Source: Methanosarcina barkeri 3 | GTDB lineage: Archaea > Halobacteriota > Methanosarcinia > Methanosarcinales > Methanosarcinaceae | Assembly (NCBI RefSeq): GCF_000970305.1 | Contig: NZ_CP009517.1 | Coordinates: 3,844,001 to 3,908,000 of the forward strand | DNA: 64,000 nucleotides | Direction: 5' to 3' | Shown here: positions 1 through 14,118 of the stretch, in pieces | Numbering within the stretch: the first letter of the stretch is position 1 | How the letters are laid out: each line of letters opens with the position of its first letter | Program-made: the position numbers and the translations under genes | The notes under the pieces: generated by a model | The model's input: only the letters and a program-made list of their open reading frames with translations | What the model was told of the DNA's origin: nothing | Database searches by the model: none

Positions 1-96
1 AGATTGACTGATTCCTGTTTCGATTCTTGCTGTGCTGACACTTCTTGCTGTGCTGACATTTCTCACAACAGGTTTTGCCTATATCGGTACGCTTAT
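1..96 (-). pseudogene. Decayed third copy of the Cys-rich precursor-like peptide gene (partial)
   Basis: Read on the minus strand from 96, this stretch matches the first ~25 codons of the two intact peptide genes at 371-583 and 596-808. The matching reading is SVP-I-stop-AKPVVRNVSTAR. The upstream AAGGAGGAAATGTT block, with its Shine-Dalgarno sequence, is preserved. The start codon is ATA instead of ATG, codon 6 is a TAG stop, and the VSTAR segment is duplicated in frame. The expected LCQS motif reads ISQS, so the first conserved Cys is lost. The copy continues beyond the left edge of the window. It is on the same strand as, and downstream of, the protease and the two intact copies. Confidence 0.8.
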
Positions 97-146
97 AACA
101 TTTCCTCCTTATTTCTGGTTTTTAATACCTACTATAAATTATAAAG

Positions 147-180
147 GGATAGCTTGCAACCATAACGATTGCAGCTATCC
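147..180 (-). terminator. Hairpin downstream of the peptide genes
   Basis: Inverted repeat GGATAGC / GCTATCC continued by TGCAA / TTGCA, with one unpaired base and a 9-nt loop. It lies 190 bases downstream of the 371-583 peptide gene and before the decayed copy. It could end the peptide transcript. There is no strong T-run, so termination is inferred. The rest of 97-370 holds no convincing gene. Confidence 0.4.
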
Positions 181-370
181 TATCGCGTTGTTTTTTGAAT
201 GTTGTGGCAGTAAGTCCCAATTACATTACACCCGAACAAACTGCTTACACAAACATTCGACATTAAATGCTATGTGGCATTATGATATTGTTAATTAGGC
301 CACACTCGCTTGGAAATGTTCAATTTGACCGATTTTGGCTTCGGTTCCTGTTTCACTATCTTTCTCGTTA

Positions 371-583
371 TTAAAACAGGTGACTTATTAGCCCGCCTAC
401 TCCCGGAATCATACCTGTTAAACCGCCTGCCACTGGACATGCTGCCAGGCAGACTTTCTTTGCAGTGTCATTTGGAATAAGGTTACAACCCGTTTCGCAA
501 AGACCGGATTGACAGAGTCCAGACTCAATCTTTGCCATACTGGTATTTCTTATAACAGGTTTTGCTTGTTTTGGCACTCTCAT
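371..583 (-). CDS. Cys-rich 70-residue precursor-like peptide, copy 2
   Basis: A 70-residue peptide with a strong Shine-Dalgarno (AAGGAGGA) before ATG at 583. Residues 1-53 nearly match the neighbouring copy and carry five Cys (24, 29, 33, 45, 49) in the pattern GLCQSGLCETGC-x11-CLAAC, followed by PVAGG. Residues 54-70 form a Gly-rich hydrophobic tail (IPGVGGL) that differs from its twin. There is no Sec signal peptide or long membrane helix. Conserved front plus variable tail, next to a PatA/PatG-like protease, suggests a processed peptide whose tail is the mature product. That role is inference; the family is not recognised. An alternative is a small metal- or Fe-S-binding peptide held by its five Cys. 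Confidence 0.75.
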   Translation of the reverse strand: MRVPKQAKPVIRNTSMAKIESGLCQSGLCETGCNLIPNDTAKKVCLAACPVAGGLTGMIPGVGGLISHLF

Positions 584-595
584 AACATTTCCTCC

Positions 596-808
596 TTATA
601 GTATGCCGCCCAATAGTCCGCCGAACACCGGAATTTTGCTTGCTAAACTGCCTGCCACTGGACATGCTGCCAGGCAGACTTTCTTTGCAGTGTCATTTGG
701 AATCAGGTTACAACCCGTTTCACAAAGACCGGATTGACAGAGTCCGGCCTCTATTTTCGCTGTGCTGACATTTCTTACAACAGGTTTTGCTTGTTTTGGT
801 AATTTCAT
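596..808 (-). CDS. Cys-rich 70-residue precursor-like peptide, copy 1
   Basis: Tandem paralogue of the 371-583 gene. The reading frame is open from 838, but the start at 808 (MKLPKQAKP) is preferred. It has GGAG a few bases upstream, aligns with the start of the other copy (MRVPKQAKP) and gives the same length, 70 residues. The five Cys positions are identical to copy 2. The tail after CPVAG reads SLASKIPVFGGLLGGIL, sharing only the scaffold GxLxxxIPxxGGL with copy 2. The genes are 12 bases apart and probably co-transcribed. They follow the protease gene after a 12-bp-stem hairpin. Function unknown; a RiPP-like precursor or archaeocin is plausible from context. Confidence 0.75.
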   Translation of the reverse strand: MKLPKQAKPVVRNVSTAKIEAGLCQSGLCETGCNLIPNDTAKKVCLAACPVAGSLASKIPVFGGLLGGIL

Positions 809-951
809 AATAACTTCTCCATATATCTCTTTGTTCATTTCCCGTAATGGGAGCTATTCTGTCACCACACAGGTGACAATTTGAAACAAATTACCCATGC
901 TTATTATCACCATCCTCGTCATAGTGACAAAGATTGTGAACATAGAGTGGG

Positions 952-984
952 TGCCACCCTAGGTGACGAAATCCTAGGGTGGCA
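952..984 (-). terminator. Perfect 12-bp hairpin after the protease gene
   Basis: TGCCACCCTAGG and CCTAGGGTGGCA form a perfect 12-bp stem with a 9-nt loop, starting 18 bases after the protease stop and 143 bases before the first peptide gene. It may end or attenuate the protease transcript, or act as a processing site so that the peptides are expressed at a different level. There is no adjacent long T-run. Confidence 0.55.
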
Positions 985-1002
985 AGTCAAAATAATTCAG
1001 TC

Positions 1003-3150
1003 TTAGTACACATACCAAGACCGTACTTCTCCAACCGTAACAGGCACCACGTCACTCACATCGATGGTATAACGAAACACCCTTCTGGCTTCTGTTTCAC
1101 GTTTTTTAGGATTGAAGAACGTCAGCTTTACATCCCAACAATCAGAATCAGGCCGGCAGACAGGGCTTCGTTCAGTCTCAATTTTATCCAGCACCTGATC
1201 ATTCAGAATTACTTCACTAAAAACGATCAACGCCTGGTATGCATTTGTCCCAGCAAAGTTCATTGCCCTATCTGATGAAACCCGACCCAGATTCATACAC
1301 TCGTAATAAACCCGATCCAAAAAGTCAGAAATTTCTCTTTTTACTTCCTCCGTATTGACATTCTCAGACTCCAGACTCTTTAATATTTGACTTATCAGTT
1401 CTTCTTTATTCCAACCGTACATTCCCCGCATTTCCGGTATAATAACTGGAACTATCTGGCCCGAAAGGAGCTTTATATTTCCGTCAATGACTCCTGGAAT
1501 CGAAACCCTCTCAATATTTATGTTTTCATCGATTTCTTTATAATCCCGCAGAAATTCGAATAATTGCTTGTATGTTGCCGAGGCAAAACTGCCTATAGGG
1601 CGGATTGCATAAGCAGGGGTACCTTCAATATCGAGAGTCCATATAAGTGATTCAGAATACTCGGGATTTGTCTTCAAGAGTTTCAACAGTTTAGTCTCAA
1701 ATGGGACTGGCGGTTTTCCAGGCTCATCTGACTCTACACTCTGGATAAAAGCATCTCGTCGCGCTTCACTCCCGAAGTCGTAACCAGGTGTGCCAAGAGC
1801 ATATACGAGGGACTGCCTGCTCGCAGATCTCGTAAGAGGGGCTTGCGCAGGTATGACAGACTGCGTAACTGCCTCATGGTCTGTCATCGTTGATTCTGCT
1901 GACTGTACTTCAGCTGCAAGAATCTGGGACACAGTAACACCATTTGTCTGCTCGTTAATTTCGTTCGTTTCTTCCATCTTCTTTTTTGGACAACCGCATG
2001 TTCCTTCTATATGTTCAGTCATATTATTCTCCTGTATCTGATTTTTCATCTGTTTATATTTCTTATCTATCGATTGTAGCTCAATAGAATCAGGATTTTC
2101 CAGAGCTTTCATCGCGGCCAAGATAGAACTTTGAGTAGAGGTCGCTGCTATCTCTGGACTAAGTGTTGTAAATTCCGCATTCTGCACGCCAAGAAAGGAA
2201 AGTTTTTTAGGAATTCCCACCAGCTCTTTGCTTACATTCCCCCTAACTTGTTGCGCCAAACTATTACGGTCAGTCACAACCTGCTGTTTTTTTGTGACAA
2301 GGTTATATGCTCCTCCAATGTTGAGACGGCCCTTTAGATAGCGAGAACAGTCTAAACCTTTGGAAGGGAAACAGGGGTGAACACTCTGAAGAATTGCTTC
2401 CTTCACAGCATGGGGATCAGGTTTTTCTCCCCTTTGTATCTGGATGCTCAATAACAAAGCAACAATACCAGAAACGATAGGAGTGGCAAAGCTGGTACCA
2501 CTTCTGGTAGTGACACCCCCGCCAGGCACAGCTCCCAGTAATTTATCACCAAGTGCGAGAATACCATTATTTTGGTATGCCTGCCCCCAATTACTAAAAT
2601 CGAGTGGCAGTCCCTGGGCATCCATTGCCCCTACCGCAAGGGTCGAGGAAATAGAGGCTGGCACATGGAGACATTGACATCCGTCATTTCCCGCAGCTGC
2701 GACGATTAAAACATTGTTTTCAGCGCAGAAACGAACAGCCTTATCAAGTAGAGGGTGAGGTTCACTGGAGGAAACCAGTTCACCGCCACTGATGTTTATG
2801 ACATGTGCTCCTTGTTCAACGGCTTGTATGATGGCGTGAGCGAGATCAATTTGCGAACAGGGACTAATTGAATCATTAGGCCTATCCGCAAAAACAGGAA
2901 TAATGAGTCCACGACAGCCTGGAGAAATACCGTGGATCGGACCATCACGCTGGCCAAAAATTAAGCTGGCAATGTGAGTTCCGTGATGTGCAGCTGGTCC
3001 ATTCTCGGCAACGCCTGAAACTAAAGTTTCTAACTGGGTTATTTTAGCTTTGTCGAAACATGGATGAGTTAGGTCGACCGGACCATCAAGGACTGCAATG
3101 CAAATACTGGCATCCCCTTTAATCTGCTCCATAAACTCTGTTGCCTTCAT
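1003..3150 (-). CDS. PatA/PatG-type subtilisin-like (S8) maturation protease
   Basis: A 715-residue protein without a signal peptide, so probably cytosolic. Residues ~14-290 are a subtilase domain with the catalytic triad Asp22 (AVLDG), His56 (HGTH) and Ser220 (SGTSFATP), plus the oxyanion motif AAAGNDG. A linker with CGCPKKK follows (~residue 370). The C-terminal ~270 residues contain LVYALGTPGYDFGSEARRD, a signature I associate with the PatA/PatG cyanobactin maturation proteases. The ATG at 3150 is preferred over an upstream ATG at 3177 because GGTG precedes it. The gene lies just upstream of two short Cys-rich peptide genes on the same strand, so those peptides are the obvious candidate substrates. 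No YcaO or other tailoring enzyme is visible inside the window; the cluster may continue past the left edge. Confidence 0.88.
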   Translation of the reverse strand: MKATEFMEQIKGDASICIAVLDGPVDLTHPCFDKAKITQLETLVSGVAENGPAAHHGTHIASLIFGQRDGPIHGISPGCRGLIIPVFADRPNDSISPCSQIDLAHAIIQAVEQGAHVINISGGELVSSSEPHPLLDKAVRFCAENNVLIVAAAGNDGCQCLHVPASISSTLAVGAMDAQGLPLDFSNWGQAYQNNGILALGDKLLGAVPGGGVTTRSGTSFATPIVSGIVALLLSIQIQRGEKPDPHAVKEAILQSVHPCFPSKGLDCSRYLKGRLNIGGAYNLVTKKQQVVTDRNSLAQQVRGNVSKELVGIPKKLSFLGVQNAEFTTLSPEIAATSTQSSILAAMKALENPDSIELQSIDKKYKQMKNQIQENNMTEHIEGTCGCPKKKMEETNEINEQTNGVTVSQILAAEVQSAESTMTDHEAVTQSVIPAQAPLTRSASRQSLVYALGTPGYDFGSEARRDAFIQSVESDEPGKPPVPFETKLLKLLKTNPEYSESLIWTLDIEGTPAYAIRPIGSFASATYKQLFEFLRDYKEIDENINIERVSIPGVIDGNIKLLSGQIVPVIIPEMRGMYGWNKEELISQILKSLESENVNTEEVKREISDFLDRVYYECMNLGRVSSDRAMNFAGTNAYQALIVFSEVILNDQVLDKIETERSPVCRPDSDCWDVKLTFFNPKKRETEARRVFRYTIDVSDVVPVTVGEVRSWYVY

Positions 3151-3212
3151 GATAAACACCAAAAATTTTACATCCACTGTTGTAATTTCACAGCAATTTT
3201 TTACTGTGAATT

Positions 3213-3408
3213 AAGCTAGAATAGAATACACAGGCAAAAATAGGTAATCCAGATAACGTATGTGCATAGTGCGCATAATTCGTAAGATACCGGCTGAAAA
3301 ATGTACAAGTTCAGTCTCACTGTAAGTGTTTATTGGAAACTGAGCTAAAATAAAATACTCACAGAAAAATAAGTTATCCAGATAATGTGTGCACAACGTG
3401 TGCATATA
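3213..3408. repeat. Degenerate direct duplication upstream of the protease
   Basis: Two ~66-bp copies (3213-3278 and 3342-3408) share AGCTA-AATA-AATAC and CCAGATAA(C/T)GT and end in GTGCATA-like sequence. They lie in the gap between the divergent protease and 3472 genes and could hold duplicated promoter or operator sequence. Confidence 0.6.
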
Positions 3409-3471
3409 TATTATATCCGTATTGAAATATTAAAGAATTAAATAAGATGTCTGGAATTCGGGTGAAAGATT

Positions 3472-4041
3472 TTGAAAACACACCGAATTTCTACTACAAT
3501 CTCACAGAAACACTGGGAATTATTAAAAAAGCAAGCTGAAAAATATGAAACACAGCAAAGAGCTTTAGAACTCGCATTGGAAAGTCTGGAAAACAGCTCA
3601 AGGCAGATTCCGGAATTAACCTTGGAAGAGAAGTATTGGATGCGCCTCAGACGGGCAAGATCATTGGTCATCATTGAAAAAACTACCTTTAAAACGCTAA
3701 CAGAGACCGCAAATATCGAACTGTTAAGTGAACTTTTTATCCGAAATAAAATCATGGAATACACGATAGAACTTTACTTTCAGAAGTCTTTTGAAGAATG
3801 TAGTCTAAAAGAAGTTGTAAATGGACTGGTTGTCAACCTTAAGATAACTAAACTGGTTGATACTATAGATTACACAGATTGCAGCAGCCATTATAAACTG
3901 ATAATAACCCATGATCTTGGCTTTACTTTCGCCAAAATGCTTTCAACATGGATTGACAATATGTTTAAAACCTATGGAGTCAGGGTAGAAAGCATAGTTT
4001 CTGTAAAGACTATTTTCATAAAAATATTAAAAACAAATTAG
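3472..4041 (+). CDS. Uncharacterised protein with ribbon-helix-helix-like N-terminus
   Basis: A 189-residue protein starting at TTG 3472, 8 bases after GGTG. Residues 1-45 (KTHRISTTISQKHWELLKKQAEKY then a helical stretch) look like a short ribbon-helix-helix DNA-binding segment. The remaining ~140 residues contain a Trp/Arg-rich helix (KYWMRLRRARSLV) and an alpha/beta region that I do not recognise. It is divergently oriented to the protease gene 300 bases away. A regulatory role for the protease and peptide locus is possible but not shown. Base composition is as AT-rich as the flanks. Confidence 0.7.
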   Translation: MKTHRISTTISQKHWELLKKQAEKYETQQRALELALESLENSSRQIPELTLEEKYWMRLRRARSLVIIEKTTFKTLTETANIELLSELFIRNKIMEYTIELYFQKSFEECSLKEVVNGLVVNLKITKLVDTIDYTDCSSHYKLIITHDLGFTFAKMLSTWIDNMFKTYGVRVESIVSVKTIFIKILKTN

Positions 4042-7741: not shown

Positions 7742-8004
7742 ATCTTACTGCCTTCTTTCCTATCAGGTCGCAATCCAACGTTTTTAAATAGCTTGCGTTG
7801 AACTGCTTGATCACGCAGGAAAGGACCTTTAGTCAAGCTTTCCGTCGAAAAGGAGCGATTAAACACTATTAAAAAGACTTGCGCTACATAACCCAGGACA
7901 ACTCTGGTTAACCAGCCCTCCTAAGTGCGTAGACAATGCAATATTTCTTACATATAAGTCAAATTTCTTGACTCAGTCTAGTATTTTCATTATAATTCAG
8001 CCCT
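7742..8004. other. Intergenic region without a recognised gene
   Basis: Between the DUF131 pair and the purA-proximal repeats. 7765-7960 is less AT-rich than the surroundings and includes short self-complementary stretches (for example around CGTTTTTAAATAGC). A small RNA is conceivable, but I cannot assign one. Confidence 0.4.
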
Positions 8005-8290
8005 CTTGAGCGAGCGAAGTGAGCGAAACGGAACCGTCCTCCCGAGACGGGACTCGGGTGACGGAACGCGGGAAGTGAAACTTCTTTGTTCATAAATTAA
8101 TCCGCTTGAGCGAGCGAAGTGAGCGAAACGGAACCGTCCTCCCGAGACGGGACTCGGGTGACGGAACGCGGGAAGTGAAACTTCTTTGTTCATAAATTAA
8201 TCCGCTTGAGCGAGCGAAGTGAGCGAAACGGAACCGTCCTCCCGAGACGGGACTCGGGTGACGGAACGCGGGTGACGGAACGCGGGAAAC
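8005..8290. repeat. 100-bp tandem triplication upstream of purA
   Basis: Units start at 8005, 8105 and 8205 with an exact 100-bp period. The first two copies are identical over the whole unit. The third is truncated and ends with a duplicated TGACGGAACGCGGG. Each unit is GC-rich and contains a hairpin CCCGAG-ACGGGA-CTCGGG and the phrase GAGCGAGCGAAGTGAGCGAA. The array ends ~40 bases before the purA start codon, so it lies in or next to the purA promoter/leader. Confidence 0.93.
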
Positions 8291-8306: not shown

Positions 8307-9602
<1,296 letters not shown>

Positions 9603-9816: not shown

Positions 9817-12800
9817 TTATCTTCTATCTATTACTGTAAATCTCATAATGAACTCTGTACCATTGTTATTTTTCAGTTCAAACTTCCCATCTAACTGATC
9901 TGCGAGAGTAGTTATCAGCTGTATACCAAGACTATCAACATTTTTAATATTAAGATTTTCAGGAATGCCTACACCATTGTCTGAAACAATCAGAATAAAA
10001 CTGGTAGCCTTATCGTCTTTCTTTTTATGCTTACCGTTTTTCTCTCTATGTAGTTTAATTTGTATTTCTCCTTTGTCTTTGCCGGGAAATGCATGTTTGA
10101 GAGAATTGGAAACAAGCTCATTGACAATTATTCCTAAAGGAACACCAGTATCCATATTAAGAAACACATTTTCTTCCAGATCCATTGAGAGGTGGATGTT
10201 TTTACTTTTAAGGCTGTAAGTCTGAAAAAGATTTTCAGCTAATTCTCTGATATACGTCGAAAAATCTAACGTATCGGTTCCCTCTCCTTTATAAAGTTCC
10301 TCATGGATGAGAGCCATAGATATAACCCGGTTCTGGCTTTCCCTGAAAGCCTCGATAACTCTTGGGTTGTCAAATTTGTCAGCCTGAAGGTCAAGAAGGG
10401 AAGAGATTACCTGCAAATTATTCTTAATCCGATGGTGAATTTCCTTTTTACGGGCAGTCTCGAAATTTTCTAAGGCTTCTTCTGCCTTTTTCTTCTCGGT
10501 AATGTCAAGAACAAAGGCTATGCCCTCATTACGCGCCTGATCGAAGGTAGCTACCCCAACAATAACAGGCACATGCGAACCGTCCTTGCGGATGTATTCC
10601 TTCTCCTGGGGTTCTTTTTCGCCAATAGTTTTCAGTTCAGCAAGGGTTCGTTCATTAAGGTAACAGTACTGCTGCGGGGTCATTTTGTTCCAGTTAACTT
10701 TTCCAGCCTGCAGGTCCTCTCGAGTGTAACCGACTATCTCAAGTAACTTGTCATTAGCATCGGTAATCGAACCGTCCAGATTAAAATAGTACACACCGAG
10801 CATATCTGACTCATAAAACTGGCGCAGACGTGCTTCACTTTCACGCAGCGCTTCTTCCGCCTTTATACGCTCAGTGACATCTCTTACAATACCTGAGATA
10901 GCCACAAGCTTTCCAGAAGTATCAAAAATAGGAGAAAGAGTAACTGAAATATTTATTATAGTGCCGTCCTTTTTTAACCTTGTACTTTCGTAGTGCTGGA
11001 CCTTTTTTCCCTGTTTAATTTTTTCAGAAAACTGCTTAATTTCCCCTTTGATATTTTCTGGTTCAAGTATTGATATGTCTTCTCCAAGAATTTCTTCGGC
11101 TGAATAACCATAAATCTGCTCCGCTGCCTTATTCCAGCTGGTAATAACACCGTTGAGGGACAGAGTTACAATAGCATCATTTGACGATTCCATAGCGTTT
11201 GCCAGTATCTGGAGTTTTTCTTCTGATCTTTTACGTTCTGTAATATCCTGAATTATTCCTTTCACTCGAACACTAGTGTCTTTTTCATCAAAAGCAGTTT
11301 CAGATTGCATATAGACCGTACGCTCTTCCTCATTAGCCAGGATAATTCTGTACTCAACACTGTGAGTTTTCTCGCCTACGGCTGCTTTTTTCTTAAGAAC
11401 ACTATCTACATAGTCCCGGTCATCTGGGTGTATATAACTCAAAAATTCATCATAAGATGGTGCTAATTCTTGAGGGGCACGTTTGAAAATACGATACATT
11501 TCCTCAGACCAGTATGCTTTATCAGTCTCAGTATCCCATTCCCAGTTCCCAATATGAGCCATTTCTTGAGCTTCAGCCAGTCCTTTTTCACTTTCTTTCA
11601 ATGAGACGTAAGCTTTCTCAAGCTCTGCTGTACGCTCTTCAACTAGTTTTTCTAAATTTTCATGTGCCTTTTTTAAAGCTTCTTCGGCCAGTTTGCGCTC
11701 GGTAATGTCACGTGCAGCAGCAAAGACACCGATAACCTTGCCATTTTCATCTCTATAAACCGAAGCATTGTACAAAACCGGAGTTATATGTCCGTCCTTA
11801 TGTCGAATCTCCAGAGGATAATCACGAACTTCACTATCTTTGAACACCTGCTGATAGCCTGCACGGGCTTTCTCAGGCTCAGTAAAGTAATCTGAAAAAT
11901 CGGTTCCAATCAAGTCATTTCTGGAATATCCGGTAACCTGTTCTGTAGCATTGTTTACATCGGTAATTTTACCATCACGCCCAATAGTTACCAGAGGGTC
12001 AAGGCTGGCTTCAATCAGACTGCGATTATAAAGATTTGACAATCTAATAACTTCTTCTGCTTTTTTGCGCTCAGTAATATCTCTCGTGATAGTAGAGATA
12101 GCCACAAGCTTTCCAGACGTGTCAAAAACAGGAGAAAGAGTAACTGAAATATTTATTATTGTTCTATCCTTTTTCATCCGTAAAGTTTCATAGTGCTGAA
12201 CCCTTTCTCCATGTTTAATCTTCTCAATTAAGTTCTTTATTTCTCCTTTAGTATTGTCCGGTTCAAGCATTGATACGTTTTTTCCCAGGACCTCCTCGGC
12301 CAAATACCCATAGAGTTTCTCTGCTCCCTTATTCCAACTAATAATAACTCCATCAAGGGACTTGGTTAGAATTGCATCATCAGATGACTCCACAGCATTT
12401 GCTAGTGTCTGAATTATCTCTTCTGCCTTTTTAATCGCAGTAATGTCACGTGCAGCAGCAAAGACACCGATAACCTTGCCATTCTCATCTCTATAAACCG
12501 AAGCATTGTACAAAACCGGAGTTATATGTCCGTCCTTATGTCGAATCTCCAGAGGATAATCACGAACTTCACTATCTTTGAACACCTGCTGATAGCCTGC
12601 ACGGGCTTTCTCAGGCTCGGTAAAATAATCTGAAAAATCGGTTCCGATCAAATCATTTCTGGAATATCCGGTAACCTGTTCAGTAGCACCATTTACGTCA
12701 GTAATCTTCCCATCACGCCCAATAGTAACTAAAGGGTCCAGACTGGCTTCGATGAGGCTACGATTATAGATATTTGATACTCTGAGAGCTTCTTCTACTT

Positions 12801-14118
12801 TTTTACGTTCGGTAATGTCTATGAATGCAGAAATGGATCCACGTAGATTCCCCTGCTCGTCACGCAAAGGTCTTGCATTGCCCAGTACATGTCGTATCCT
12901 ACCTTCAGCAGATACGATGTCCAGCTCGCAGTCGTTTATTTCTATGCCTGTAGCTGACAATTGCGACGGCATTTCTTCAGGTTGGAGCTCAACTCCATCC
13001 TTGAGTAATTTAAACATCTCAGGCTTCTCTCCTTCAGGAGCGGATTTGGAAAAGTTTGTACCTACAGGAATTCGTAGCCATTCGTAGGAGAGCCTGTTAC
13101 CAGTTATCTGAAACGCCTGAGGATCATGTGCTATATATACGGCAACAGGCACGGCATCCAATAATACTTCCAGTTCCTCTGAACGAGCCCGCTCACGTTT
13201 TTCACTCTCTTGCAGCGCATCTAAAACTGCATCACGTTCGGCAAGTGATTGAGATAATTTGATATTGCTGTAGCTTAGTTGTGAAATCATATTAGCAAAG
13301 GTCATGAAAAAAGTCATACTCGTATTCACAGCTTCCTTGCTAAGCCGAGGAACTTTGTCAAGCGCCTCTAGATATTCCTCCTCATTGAAACCATATTTTC
13401 TAGCTTGAGATCGAAAAAGCTCATAGTTCAGAGGTTCATCTTCAAAAAAGAAGTGTCCTGAGAAGATATTGCCGACATGCTGCCCTTCTACCATAACCGG
13501 AGTAACTACATCCCACATATTGTTCTTACACTTGTAAAGCTTATATCCTCCCGGAGCAACACCCGCAGTTAGATTTATGTCACTTTCTATACAGTGCTTG
13601 CAGGCTTCAGGACTAATTCTATGGAACCTTGTGCAGATATCCTGCCATCCAACACTTACCAGAACGTTACCTTTCAAATCGGTTAAGCCCATGGGAATAT
13701 GAGCAAGCGTATAAAAGTCACTCATAAGAGACTGGACCGCTTTAGCATCAATAATCCTGGCAAGCTCCAGATTCGCCTTTTCTTGAGTCTCACCTTCCTG
13801 AGGTTTTCCCTCAAGCTTTTTACGACCACTTATGTCAAATCCGTAGACATTTACGCATTCTTGTTCAGGAGAGAGATGAAAAACAATAAAGTATACTTTT
13901 TTACCCAGGGTAACCTCTATTTTTTCGATGTTTTTCCGAGAAATTGTTCTTTGAACAAAAATTTCGAGATATGGAGGCACTTTTTCTCCAACTCTCACAC
14001 CCCAATCATACAGTAAAGGCTCCCCCGCCTTATTGGAATAAAGAACAACACCATCCTTTGCTACACTGAGCACAGGGTTCGAATTTATTGCTGGGAATTG
14101 ATCCATTTTAGCTGTCAT
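9817..14118 (-). CDS. Multi-PAS sensor histidine kinase with PocR domain (HisKA_2 type)
   Basis: A 1433-residue soluble kinase with no membrane segment. Domains in order are an N-terminal PAS-like module (1-105), a PocR-type ligand-binding domain (~115-290, with CKHC and CKNNMWDVVTPV), and then about seven PAS/PAC modules. Most of these end in DITERKKAEE-like linkers. A coiled coil lies at ~810-860. The His-containing dimerisation segment IHHRIKNNLQVISSLL is at ~1225, and the HATPase domain is at ~1310-1430 (NELVSNSLKHAF, DNGVGIP). Two PAS modules are near-identical even in DNA (11703-12045 and 12441-12783). The start ATG follows GGGATA. No response regulator lies nearby, so it is an orphan kinase; the signal sensed is unknown. 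Its N-terminal module is homologous to that of the 17684 kinase. Confidence 0.93.
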   Translation of the reverse strand: MTAKMDQFPAINSNPVLSVAKDGVVLYSNKAGEPLLYDWGVRVGEKVPPYLEIFVQRTISRKNIEKIEVTLGKKVYFIVFHLSPEQECVNVYGFDISGRKKLEGKPQEGETQEKANLELARIIDAKAVQSLMSDFYTLAHIPMGLTDLKGNVLVSVGWQDICTRFHRISPEACKHCIESDINLTAGVAPGGYKLYKCKNNMWDVVTPVMVEGQHVGNIFSGHFFFEDEPLNYELFRSQARKYGFNEEEYLEALDKVPRLSKEAVNTSMTFFMTFANMISQLSYSNIKLSQSLAERDAVLDALQESEKRERARSEELEVLLDAVPVAVYIAHDPQAFQITGNRLSYEWLRIPVGTNFSKSAPEGEKPEMFKLLKDGVELQPEEMPSQLSATGIEINDCELDIVSAEGRIRHVLGNARPLRDEQGNLRGSISAFIDITERKKVEEALRVSNIYNRSLIEASLDPLVTIGRDGKITDVNGATEQVTGYSRNDLIGTDFSDYFTEPEKARAGYQQVFKDSEVRDYPLEIRHKDGHITPVLYNASVYRDENGKVIGVFAAARDITAIKKAEEIIQTLANAVESSDDAILTKSLDGVIISWNKGAEKLYGYLAEEVLGKNVSMLEPDNTKGEIKNLIEKIKHGERVQHYETLRMKKDRTIINISVTLSPVFDTSGKLVAISTITRDITERKKAEEVIRLSNLYNRSLIEASLDPLVTIGRDGKITDVNNATEQVTGYSRNDLIGTDFSDYFTEPEKARAGYQQVFKDSEVRDYPLEIRHKDGHITPVLYNASVYRDENGKVIGVFAAARDITERKLAEEALKKAHENLEKLVEERTAELEKAYVSLKESEKGLAEAQEMAHIGNWEWDTETDKAYWSEEMYRIFKRAPQELAPSYDEFLSYIHPDDRDYVDSVLKKKAAVGEKTHSVEYRIILANEEERTVYMQSETAFDEKDTSVRVKGIIQDITERKRSEEKLQILANAMESSNDAIVTLSLNGVITSWNKAAEQIYGYSAEEILGEDISILEPENIKGEIKQFSEKIKQGKKVQHYESTRLKKDGTIINISVTLSPIFDTSGKLVAISGIVRDVTERIKAEEALRESEARLRQFYESDMLGVYYFNLDGSITDANDKLLEIVGYTREDLQAGKVNWNKMTPQQYCYLNERTLAELKTIGEKEPQEKEYIRKDGSHVPVIVGVATFDQARNEGIAFVLDITEKKKAEEALENFETARKKEIHHRIKNNLQVISSLLDLQADKFDNPRVIEAFRESQNRVISMALIHEELYKGEGTDTLDFSTYIRELAENLFQTYSLKSKNIHLSMDLEENVFLNMDTGVPLGIIVNELVSNSLKHAFPGKDKGEIQIKLHREKNGKHKKKDDKATSFILIVSDNGVGIPENLNIKNVDSLGIQLITTLADQLDGKFELKNNNGTEFIMRFTVIDRR
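11703..12783. repeat. In-frame duplicated PAS-coding DNA inside the kinase gene
   Basis: The segment 11703-12045 recurs at 12441-12783 with an offset of exactly 738 bp (246 codons). Long stretches are identical, including third positions. Recombination between the copies would remove or add one PAS pair without breaking the frame. Confidence 0.9.

Follow-up and report, generated by a model that had tools for sequence, protein, structure and literature searches.

What does a protease of the cyanobactin maturation family do in a methanogenic archaeon, when, according to a 2015 review, active cyanobactin clusters always have both A and G proteases and such clusters had been identified only in cyanobacteria (PMC4663559)? 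The question is raised by a locus at the left end of a 64,000-nucleotide stretch of Methanosarcina barkeri 3 (NZ_CP009517.1, positions 3,844,001 to 3,908,000; hereafter the window), in which a subtilase gene is followed on the same strand by two genes for 70-residue Cys-rich peptides and a decayed third copy. The locus is most probably a PatA-only cassette for precursor processing, in which the leader of each peptide would be clipped off to leave a core of about 44 residues with two disulfides, neither heterocyclised nor macrocyclised.

The Protease and the Peptide Genes

The cassette lies on the minus strand and is read in the order protease (3150..1003), first peptide (P0003, 808..596), second peptide (P0002, 583..371, 76% identical to the first) and decayed third copy. 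The longest open reading frame (ORF) of the protease, 3177..1003, opens with a GTG at 3177; the likely start is the ATG at 3150 (about 715 residues), since the relative in a second Methanosarcina genome, G003, begins at the equivalent point. The protein reaches 695 bits with TIGR03895, the model for cyanobactin maturation proteases of the PatA/PatG family (cut-off 421), lies above the Pfam cut-offs for Peptidase_S8, PatG_D (51 bits) and PatG_C (124 bits), and consists of a subtilase domain, a linker with a CGC pair and a PatG_D-PatG_C domain. Among solved structures it matches 4h6w best, an N-terminal cyanobactin protease (346 bits, residues 16-295); the C-terminal part gives 222 bits with 4uvq, the structure of the PatG DUF. 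The catalytic residues D31, H65 and S229 are invariant across four relatives. PatG proteins carry some 50-60 extra residues between the positions equivalent to 45 and 57 of the window protease, the expected place of the macrocyclisation insert; they are absent from the window protease, which is therefore of the PatA type. The intact Asp-His-Ser triad, the PatA/PatG-type C-terminal domain and the peptide genes described in an initial annotation of the window are thus all confirmed, the two 70-residue peptides exactly and the third copy as real. Between the window and G003 the protease shows a nonsynonymous divergence (dN) of 0.19 and a synonymous divergence (dS) of 0.67, and is under purifying selection. 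The CxC pair of the linker was considered as a hallmark of stand-alone PatA and rejected, because classic PatA proteins carry it too.

In the first peptide, residues 1-26 hold the leader and the recognition motif (LPKQAKPVVR...GLCQS), and the predicted core GLCETGCNLIPNDTAKKVCLAACPVAGSLASKIPVFGGLLGGIL, with four Cys, follows GLCQS (599..730, minus strand), the cut being placed at the site G-[VIL]-x-x-S common to the relatives. The predicted core of the second peptide is GLCETGCNLIPNDTAKKVCLAACPVAGGLTGMIPGVGGLISHLF (374..505, minus strand). The 5' part of the third copy occupies window positions 1..90 on the minus strand and continues leftward outside the window. It was followed there in a flanking region, L002 (genome positions 3830001-3848000; L002 position minus 14000 gives the window position), where it runs from 14090 to 13929; its start codon is replaced by ATA and a TAG interrupts its frame, yet it still matches with an E-value of 8.5e-5 and keeps a core remnant, DNCQDNCKKLRGATRDLCFKMCEVYTVGS. 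A fourth remnant near L002:13500 (minus strand) is doubtful (E 0.04). In both archaeal genomes a hairpin repeat (GGATAGCTGCAAYC..GRTTGCAAGCTATCC) separates or follows consecutive peptide genes (minus strand; L002:14138-14195 and 13580-13640; L039, the G003 locus, 10195-10270, 9845-9910 and 9490-9555); its folding is consistent and covariation support slight.

Pairing of Protease and Peptides

The protease-peptide link is well supported, and the pairing goes beyond chance. A hidden Markov model (HMM) built from the four archaeal peptides alone was run as a held-out test against 12 whole cyanobacterial genomes: all of its 11 best matches (E 4e-7 to 0.05) lie directly downstream of a stand-alone PatA, the first match elsewhere has an E-value of 0.085, and five control genomes give nothing below 0.53. 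In the 2.5 kb that follow each of 15 stand-alone PatA genes (37.5 kb together), 32 short ORFs carry the leader motif; there is one elsewhere in those same loci, itself precursor-like with GVEAS, and none in 337 kb of background. Precursors with a conserved leader and a variable core thus stand beside a cognate processing enzyme, as is general for ribosomally synthesised and post-translationally modified peptides (RiPPs).

The initial annotation had tied the protease to precursor-like peptides and proposed a search for the peptide pattern beside S8 proteases elsewhere. Homologues were indeed found next to the protease, and the pattern recurs beside such proteases in cyanobacteria and Streptomyces; the supposition of an exclusively archaeal class fell with the same result. 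No cyclodehydratase had been visible to it, and extension to the left likewise shows no YcaO. The extension recovered the rest of the decayed copy, and the radical SAM/SPASM gene that it revealed about 9 kb to the left was rejected as part of the cassette, being present in all 31 genomes of the genus compared (one sampled per species).

Leader, Recognition Site and Core

The peptides have a common leader, LPxQxxPVxR, followed at variable distance by G-[VIL]-x-x-S, and comparison across relatives places the end of the conserved leader at about residue 26. Within the archaeal set G22 and S26 are invariant. The site reads GLCQS, GISQS or GVNSS in archaea, GVNPS, GIKPS, GITPS or GISPS in cyanobacteria, and GVEAS, GVEAN or GIEPS in Streptomyces and others; the published consensus for PatA is G(L/V)E(A/P)S (PMC10885120). 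Both the leader and recognition sequence II (RSII) of cyanobactin precursors are present, the latter when relaxed to G[VIL]xxS, and curated precursor models match the leader weakly, below their cut-off. NCBIfam names none of these peptides, Pfam neither of the two in the window, and no description of them was found in the literature searched. The heterocyclase is directed by recognition sequence I (RSI, LAELSEEAL). Neither RSI nor YcaO occurs near any stand-alone PatA locus, and the two absences agree; a classic cyanobactin locus, L102, has both. Recognition sequence III (RSIII, AYDG type) after a short core was seen in none of the listed precursors, which end in the core, in keeping with the missing PatG. 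The PatG-like macrocyclisation envisaged initially is not supported for an insert-free PatA-type enzyme whose precursors have no RSIII tail.

After the predicted cut, the window cores comprise 44 residues with four Cys in the pattern C-x3-C-x11-C-x3-C. Five Cys had at first been assigned to the leader; only the N-terminal-most, C24, stands before the predicted cut, inside the recognition site, and the other four fall in the predicted core. The spacing of the archaeal cores resembles that of alpha-hairpinin-type peptides (CX3C-Xn-CX3C), a likeness of spacing only. Beyond the site the cores are wholly different: those of Nostoc-type cyanobacteria and archaea are rich in Cys, and many from Streptomyces and some from cyanobacteria are amphipathic and lack Cys. 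The number of Cys is even in 21 of the 22 Cys-containing cores, related peptides included, the exception being a site mis-picked by the script, and both intact types of precursor whose total is odd turn even once cut at the site (the window peptides, with five; L064:5116-5304, with three). This evenness suggests that the core Cys are paired as disulfides. One subtype, recognised by eye, has two Cys around G-x-(A/S)-R; it occurs in the decayed archaeal copy as well as in cyanobacteria and Streptomyces. The Cys-free cores that follow GVEA(N/S) at L061:8749-9735, L064:5383-6085 and L099:11046-11532, among them FLPLLGALGSLLF and AWYDTLLDIAKKAVPIVSNVLGSL, look like short amphipathic membrane-active peptides.

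Relatives in Cyanobacteria and Streptomyces

A scan for related loci with two peptide patterns gave three loci; the wider picture comes from plasmid, cyanobacterial-genome and profile searches. Relatives of the protease in Nostoc carneum and Nostoc favosum are 67-68% identical in the best segment, and each has Cys-rich peptides downstream that share the leader (e.g., MKLPIQAQPIMRKVSTAKIISTGIVTSVWNHCNCNSACRISQDACVDCLTRCLG). Further relatives came from the plasmid search, in Gloeocapsa, Acaryochloris and Nostoc commune and on three Streptomyces plasmids. Of the 292 cyanobacterial genomes searched, 25 have relatives; the closest are stand-alone PatA proteins accompanied by such peptides, and the classic clusters with both PatA and PatG score lower. 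Within the stretch read, none of the stand-alone PatA loci contains a PatG protease, YcaO or SagB, all of which were detected in the true cyanobactin loci L060 and L102.

The S8 tree sets the stand-alone PatA proteins of cyanobacteria, Streptomyces and archaea apart from classic PatA (89/81) and places the two archaeal proteins among cyanobacterial ones (94/93), which points to horizontal transfer from a cyanobacterium-like donor.

Other genes were noted beside these cassettes. A CAP-domain gene (cysteine-rich secretory protein family) adjoins the stand-alone PatA cassette in four cyanobacteria (L051:7717-8103, L052:7869-8255, L058:5296-5886 and L062:5255-5500), and at each of the three Streptomyces plasmid loci the PatA-like protease has a BTAD-type regulator gene as its neighbour (L061:4870-5583, L063:5033-5653 and L064:1266-2042). 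On a plasmid of Nostoc commune SO-36 the cassette is decayed: the PatA-like gene (L062:5908-7284) has lost the subtilase part with the catalytic Ser, and the peptide gene is intact.

Distribution in the Genus

Two of the 31 genus genomes, that of the window (G000) and G003, encode a TIGR03895 protein above the cut-off, the former only one, and exactly the same two have the peptides, in both directly downstream of the protease. The G003 cassette encodes MKLPVLAKPVMRKISTVKIKAGISQSDCSALCSKKQGLAWKLCMNMCNIKESAVTT and MRIPIQAKPVMRNISTARIEAGVNSSVNIGCLLTKCAPCAAKVISGDFAGAATCAISNCPQCF in that order, followed by a second, frameshifted MRIPIQAKPVMRNISTARIEAGVNSSVNIGCLLTKCAPCAAKVISGDFAGAATCAISNCPQCF. The site between an ADP-ribosylglycohydrolase gene and a gene for a 189-residue protein spans 5.0 kb here vs. 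2.1-2.6 kb in four sister genomes, none of which shows traces of protease or peptides at the syntenic site. Three of the four retain some of what lies ahead of the protease start (blastn), and the intergenic stretch from the protease to the divergent 189-residue gene (3151..3471) is partly kept at these empty sites. The cassette was therefore either inserted there or lost from the sisters; it was probably acquired horizontally.

The divergent 189-residue gene itself (window 3472-4041) was rejected as a partner, as it occurs in 15 of the 31 genomes, mostly without the protease, and a 197-residue ORF (L002:12543-13136), with no relative at the G003 locus and no Pfam match, was not counted as a part. 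Elsewhere in the window, at 7959-8193 on the minus strand, overlapping ORFs contain direct repeats that code for one short stretch, NKEVSLPAFRHPSPVSGGRFRFAHFARS.

The C-Terminal Domain Without the Protease

The PatG_D-PatG_C domain occurs alone, without a protease, in eight genes of two other archaeal genomes, G395 and G348, at three loci (L105, G395:C1:1845000-1864000; L106, G395:C1:2980000-2999000; L107, G348:C19:1-6000). All eight are followed on the same strand, about 14-28 bp downstream, by an ORF of 43-71 codons with 6-8 Cys (e.g., L105:10276-10491 and L107:735-866). Such an ORF follows none of the 17 other long ORFs at these loci and 3 of 220 in the background, one of the three being a PatA of this family. 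A third archaeon, G118 (L044, G118:C28), has a split arrangement in which the end of a PatG-type domain (2-151), a 91-residue peptide with TAEAS and a Cys-rich tail (162-437) and a separate S8 protease (730-1605) stand in a row. This suggests that the PatG-type C-terminal domain is a partner of Cys-rich peptides. In isolation, the PatG domain showed no binding to linear PatE (PMC4259220).

Proposed Mechanism and Alternatives

In the proposed cassette, the protease would recognise the conserved leader LPxQxxPVxR and cut after G-[VIL]-x-x-S, freeing a C-terminal core of about 44 residues with a hydrophobic, hypervariable tail. The four core Cys would pair as two disulfides across the CX3C-X11-CX3C hairpin, and the core would undergo neither heterocyclisation nor head-to-tail macrocyclisation. 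Handling the peptide, or helping it to fold, is the probable task of the C-terminal PatG-type domain; the core may be exported and may serve an antagonistic or signalling role. Several observations weigh against this proposal. The archaeal sites GLCQS, GISQS and GVNSS agree with the published consensus at three positions only (G, the hydrophobic residue and S), and the Cys parity draws on related peptides. No exporter or immunity gene was recognised adjoining the archaeal cassette. An AlphaFold2 model of the protease from three sequences was discarded at a predicted local distance difference test score (pLDDT) of 33. Finally, some peptide copies are decayed in both archaeal genomes, so the cassette may be weakly selected or turning over.

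The product might instead be the hypervariable tail alone (residues 54-70, SLASKIPVFGGLLGGIL type), freed by a second cut after CPVAG, with the Cys hairpin as a shielding or targeting part of the leader. Between the two window peptides, residues 27-53 are identical, with no nonsynonymous change, and the tail varies strongly (dN 0.52), which keeps this a live rival; the tails are also similar to the short amphipathic cores found in Streptomyces and in some of the cyanobacteria, such as FLPLLGALGSLLF. However, the synonymous divergence of residues 27-53 is low too (dS 0.105), which gene conversion could explain, no conserved second site was found, and in G003 and Nostoc the Cys part directly follows the leader and makes up nearly the whole core, so that a tail-only product is unlikely. 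Somewhat more doubtful still is the idea that the cores are intracellular metal-binding or thiol peptides rather than secreted disulfide peptides. The CX3C pairs, the strictly anaerobic host, the CxC pair of the PatA-type linker and the lack of a recognised exporter beside the genes would suit it; even Cys counts, however, suit disulfides better, and related cassettes have Cys-free cores (Streptomyces; genomes G566 and G622), which rules metal binding out as the general role.

That the peptides are macrocyclised or otherwise modified as true cyanobactins, by PatA or by enzymes encoded elsewhere, is improbable. Protease family and leader are both of cyanobactin type, and the anacyclamide and piricyclamide clusters likewise have no heterocyclase (PMC4663559), but no stand-alone locus has a PatG, the macrocyclisation insert is missing, and the precursors carry neither RSI nor RSIII and have cores of about 13-50 residues; other enzymes encoded elsewhere in the genome may still act on the peptides. 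An anti-phage defence system with the peptides as substrates or inhibitors of the protease is hardly credible: the PADLOC matches to a generic subtilase model and to IetS that raise it are weak, cover the S8 domain only and fall far below that to TIGR03895, no gene that would partner it in such a system was seen, and the peptides have a cyanobactin-type leader and hypervariable ends.

Relation to Known Systems

Like the cyanobactin pathways (pat, acy and pir, for patellamide, anacyclamide and piricyclamide), the proposed leader-clipping cassette combines a PatA-family protease bearing a C-terminal PatG-type domain with tandem, hypervariable precursors that have the leader LPxQxxPVxR and a PatA-type site. 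Unlike them, it has no PatG macrocyclase, RSI, RSIII, YcaO or SagB, its cores are long and Cys-rich or amphipathic, and its hosts include an archaeon and Streptomyces. No ORF of the PatB/PatC or PatF kind was noticed beside the archaeal cassette, though no search was aimed at them. With PatG, the macrocyclisation insert, YcaO, RSI and RSIII all missing, this is not a cyanobactin pathway; lacking the two defining features PatG and RSIII, it works like the N-terminal processing arm of one.

Class II bacteriocins of the double-Gly type are likewise ribosomal precursors whose conserved leader is removed once and whose core is otherwise unmodified or disulfide-bonded. The cassette would resemble them in having its leader clipped once and differs in that leader and in using a PatA-family subtilase, not a C39 peptidase-transporter. 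Archaeal lanthipeptides are also archaeal ribosomal peptides, but are made by LanM synthetases in haloarchaea; the main text of two archaeal surveys mentions neither cyanobactins nor Methanosarcina (PMC10105419, PMC12144867).

A methanogenic archaeon thus has an A protease with precursors of its own, and cyanobacteria and Streptomyces share this pair, for which NCBIfam has no name. The macrocyclising cyanobactin pathways may, as a tentative idea, be a specialised offshoot or sister of the PatA-only cassette. The function of the cyanobactin C-terminal domain becomes testable, because other archaea of the same class carry the domain by itself, in every case immediately ahead of a Cys-rich peptide gene, and the cassette itself offers a small two-gene system for testing leader removal.

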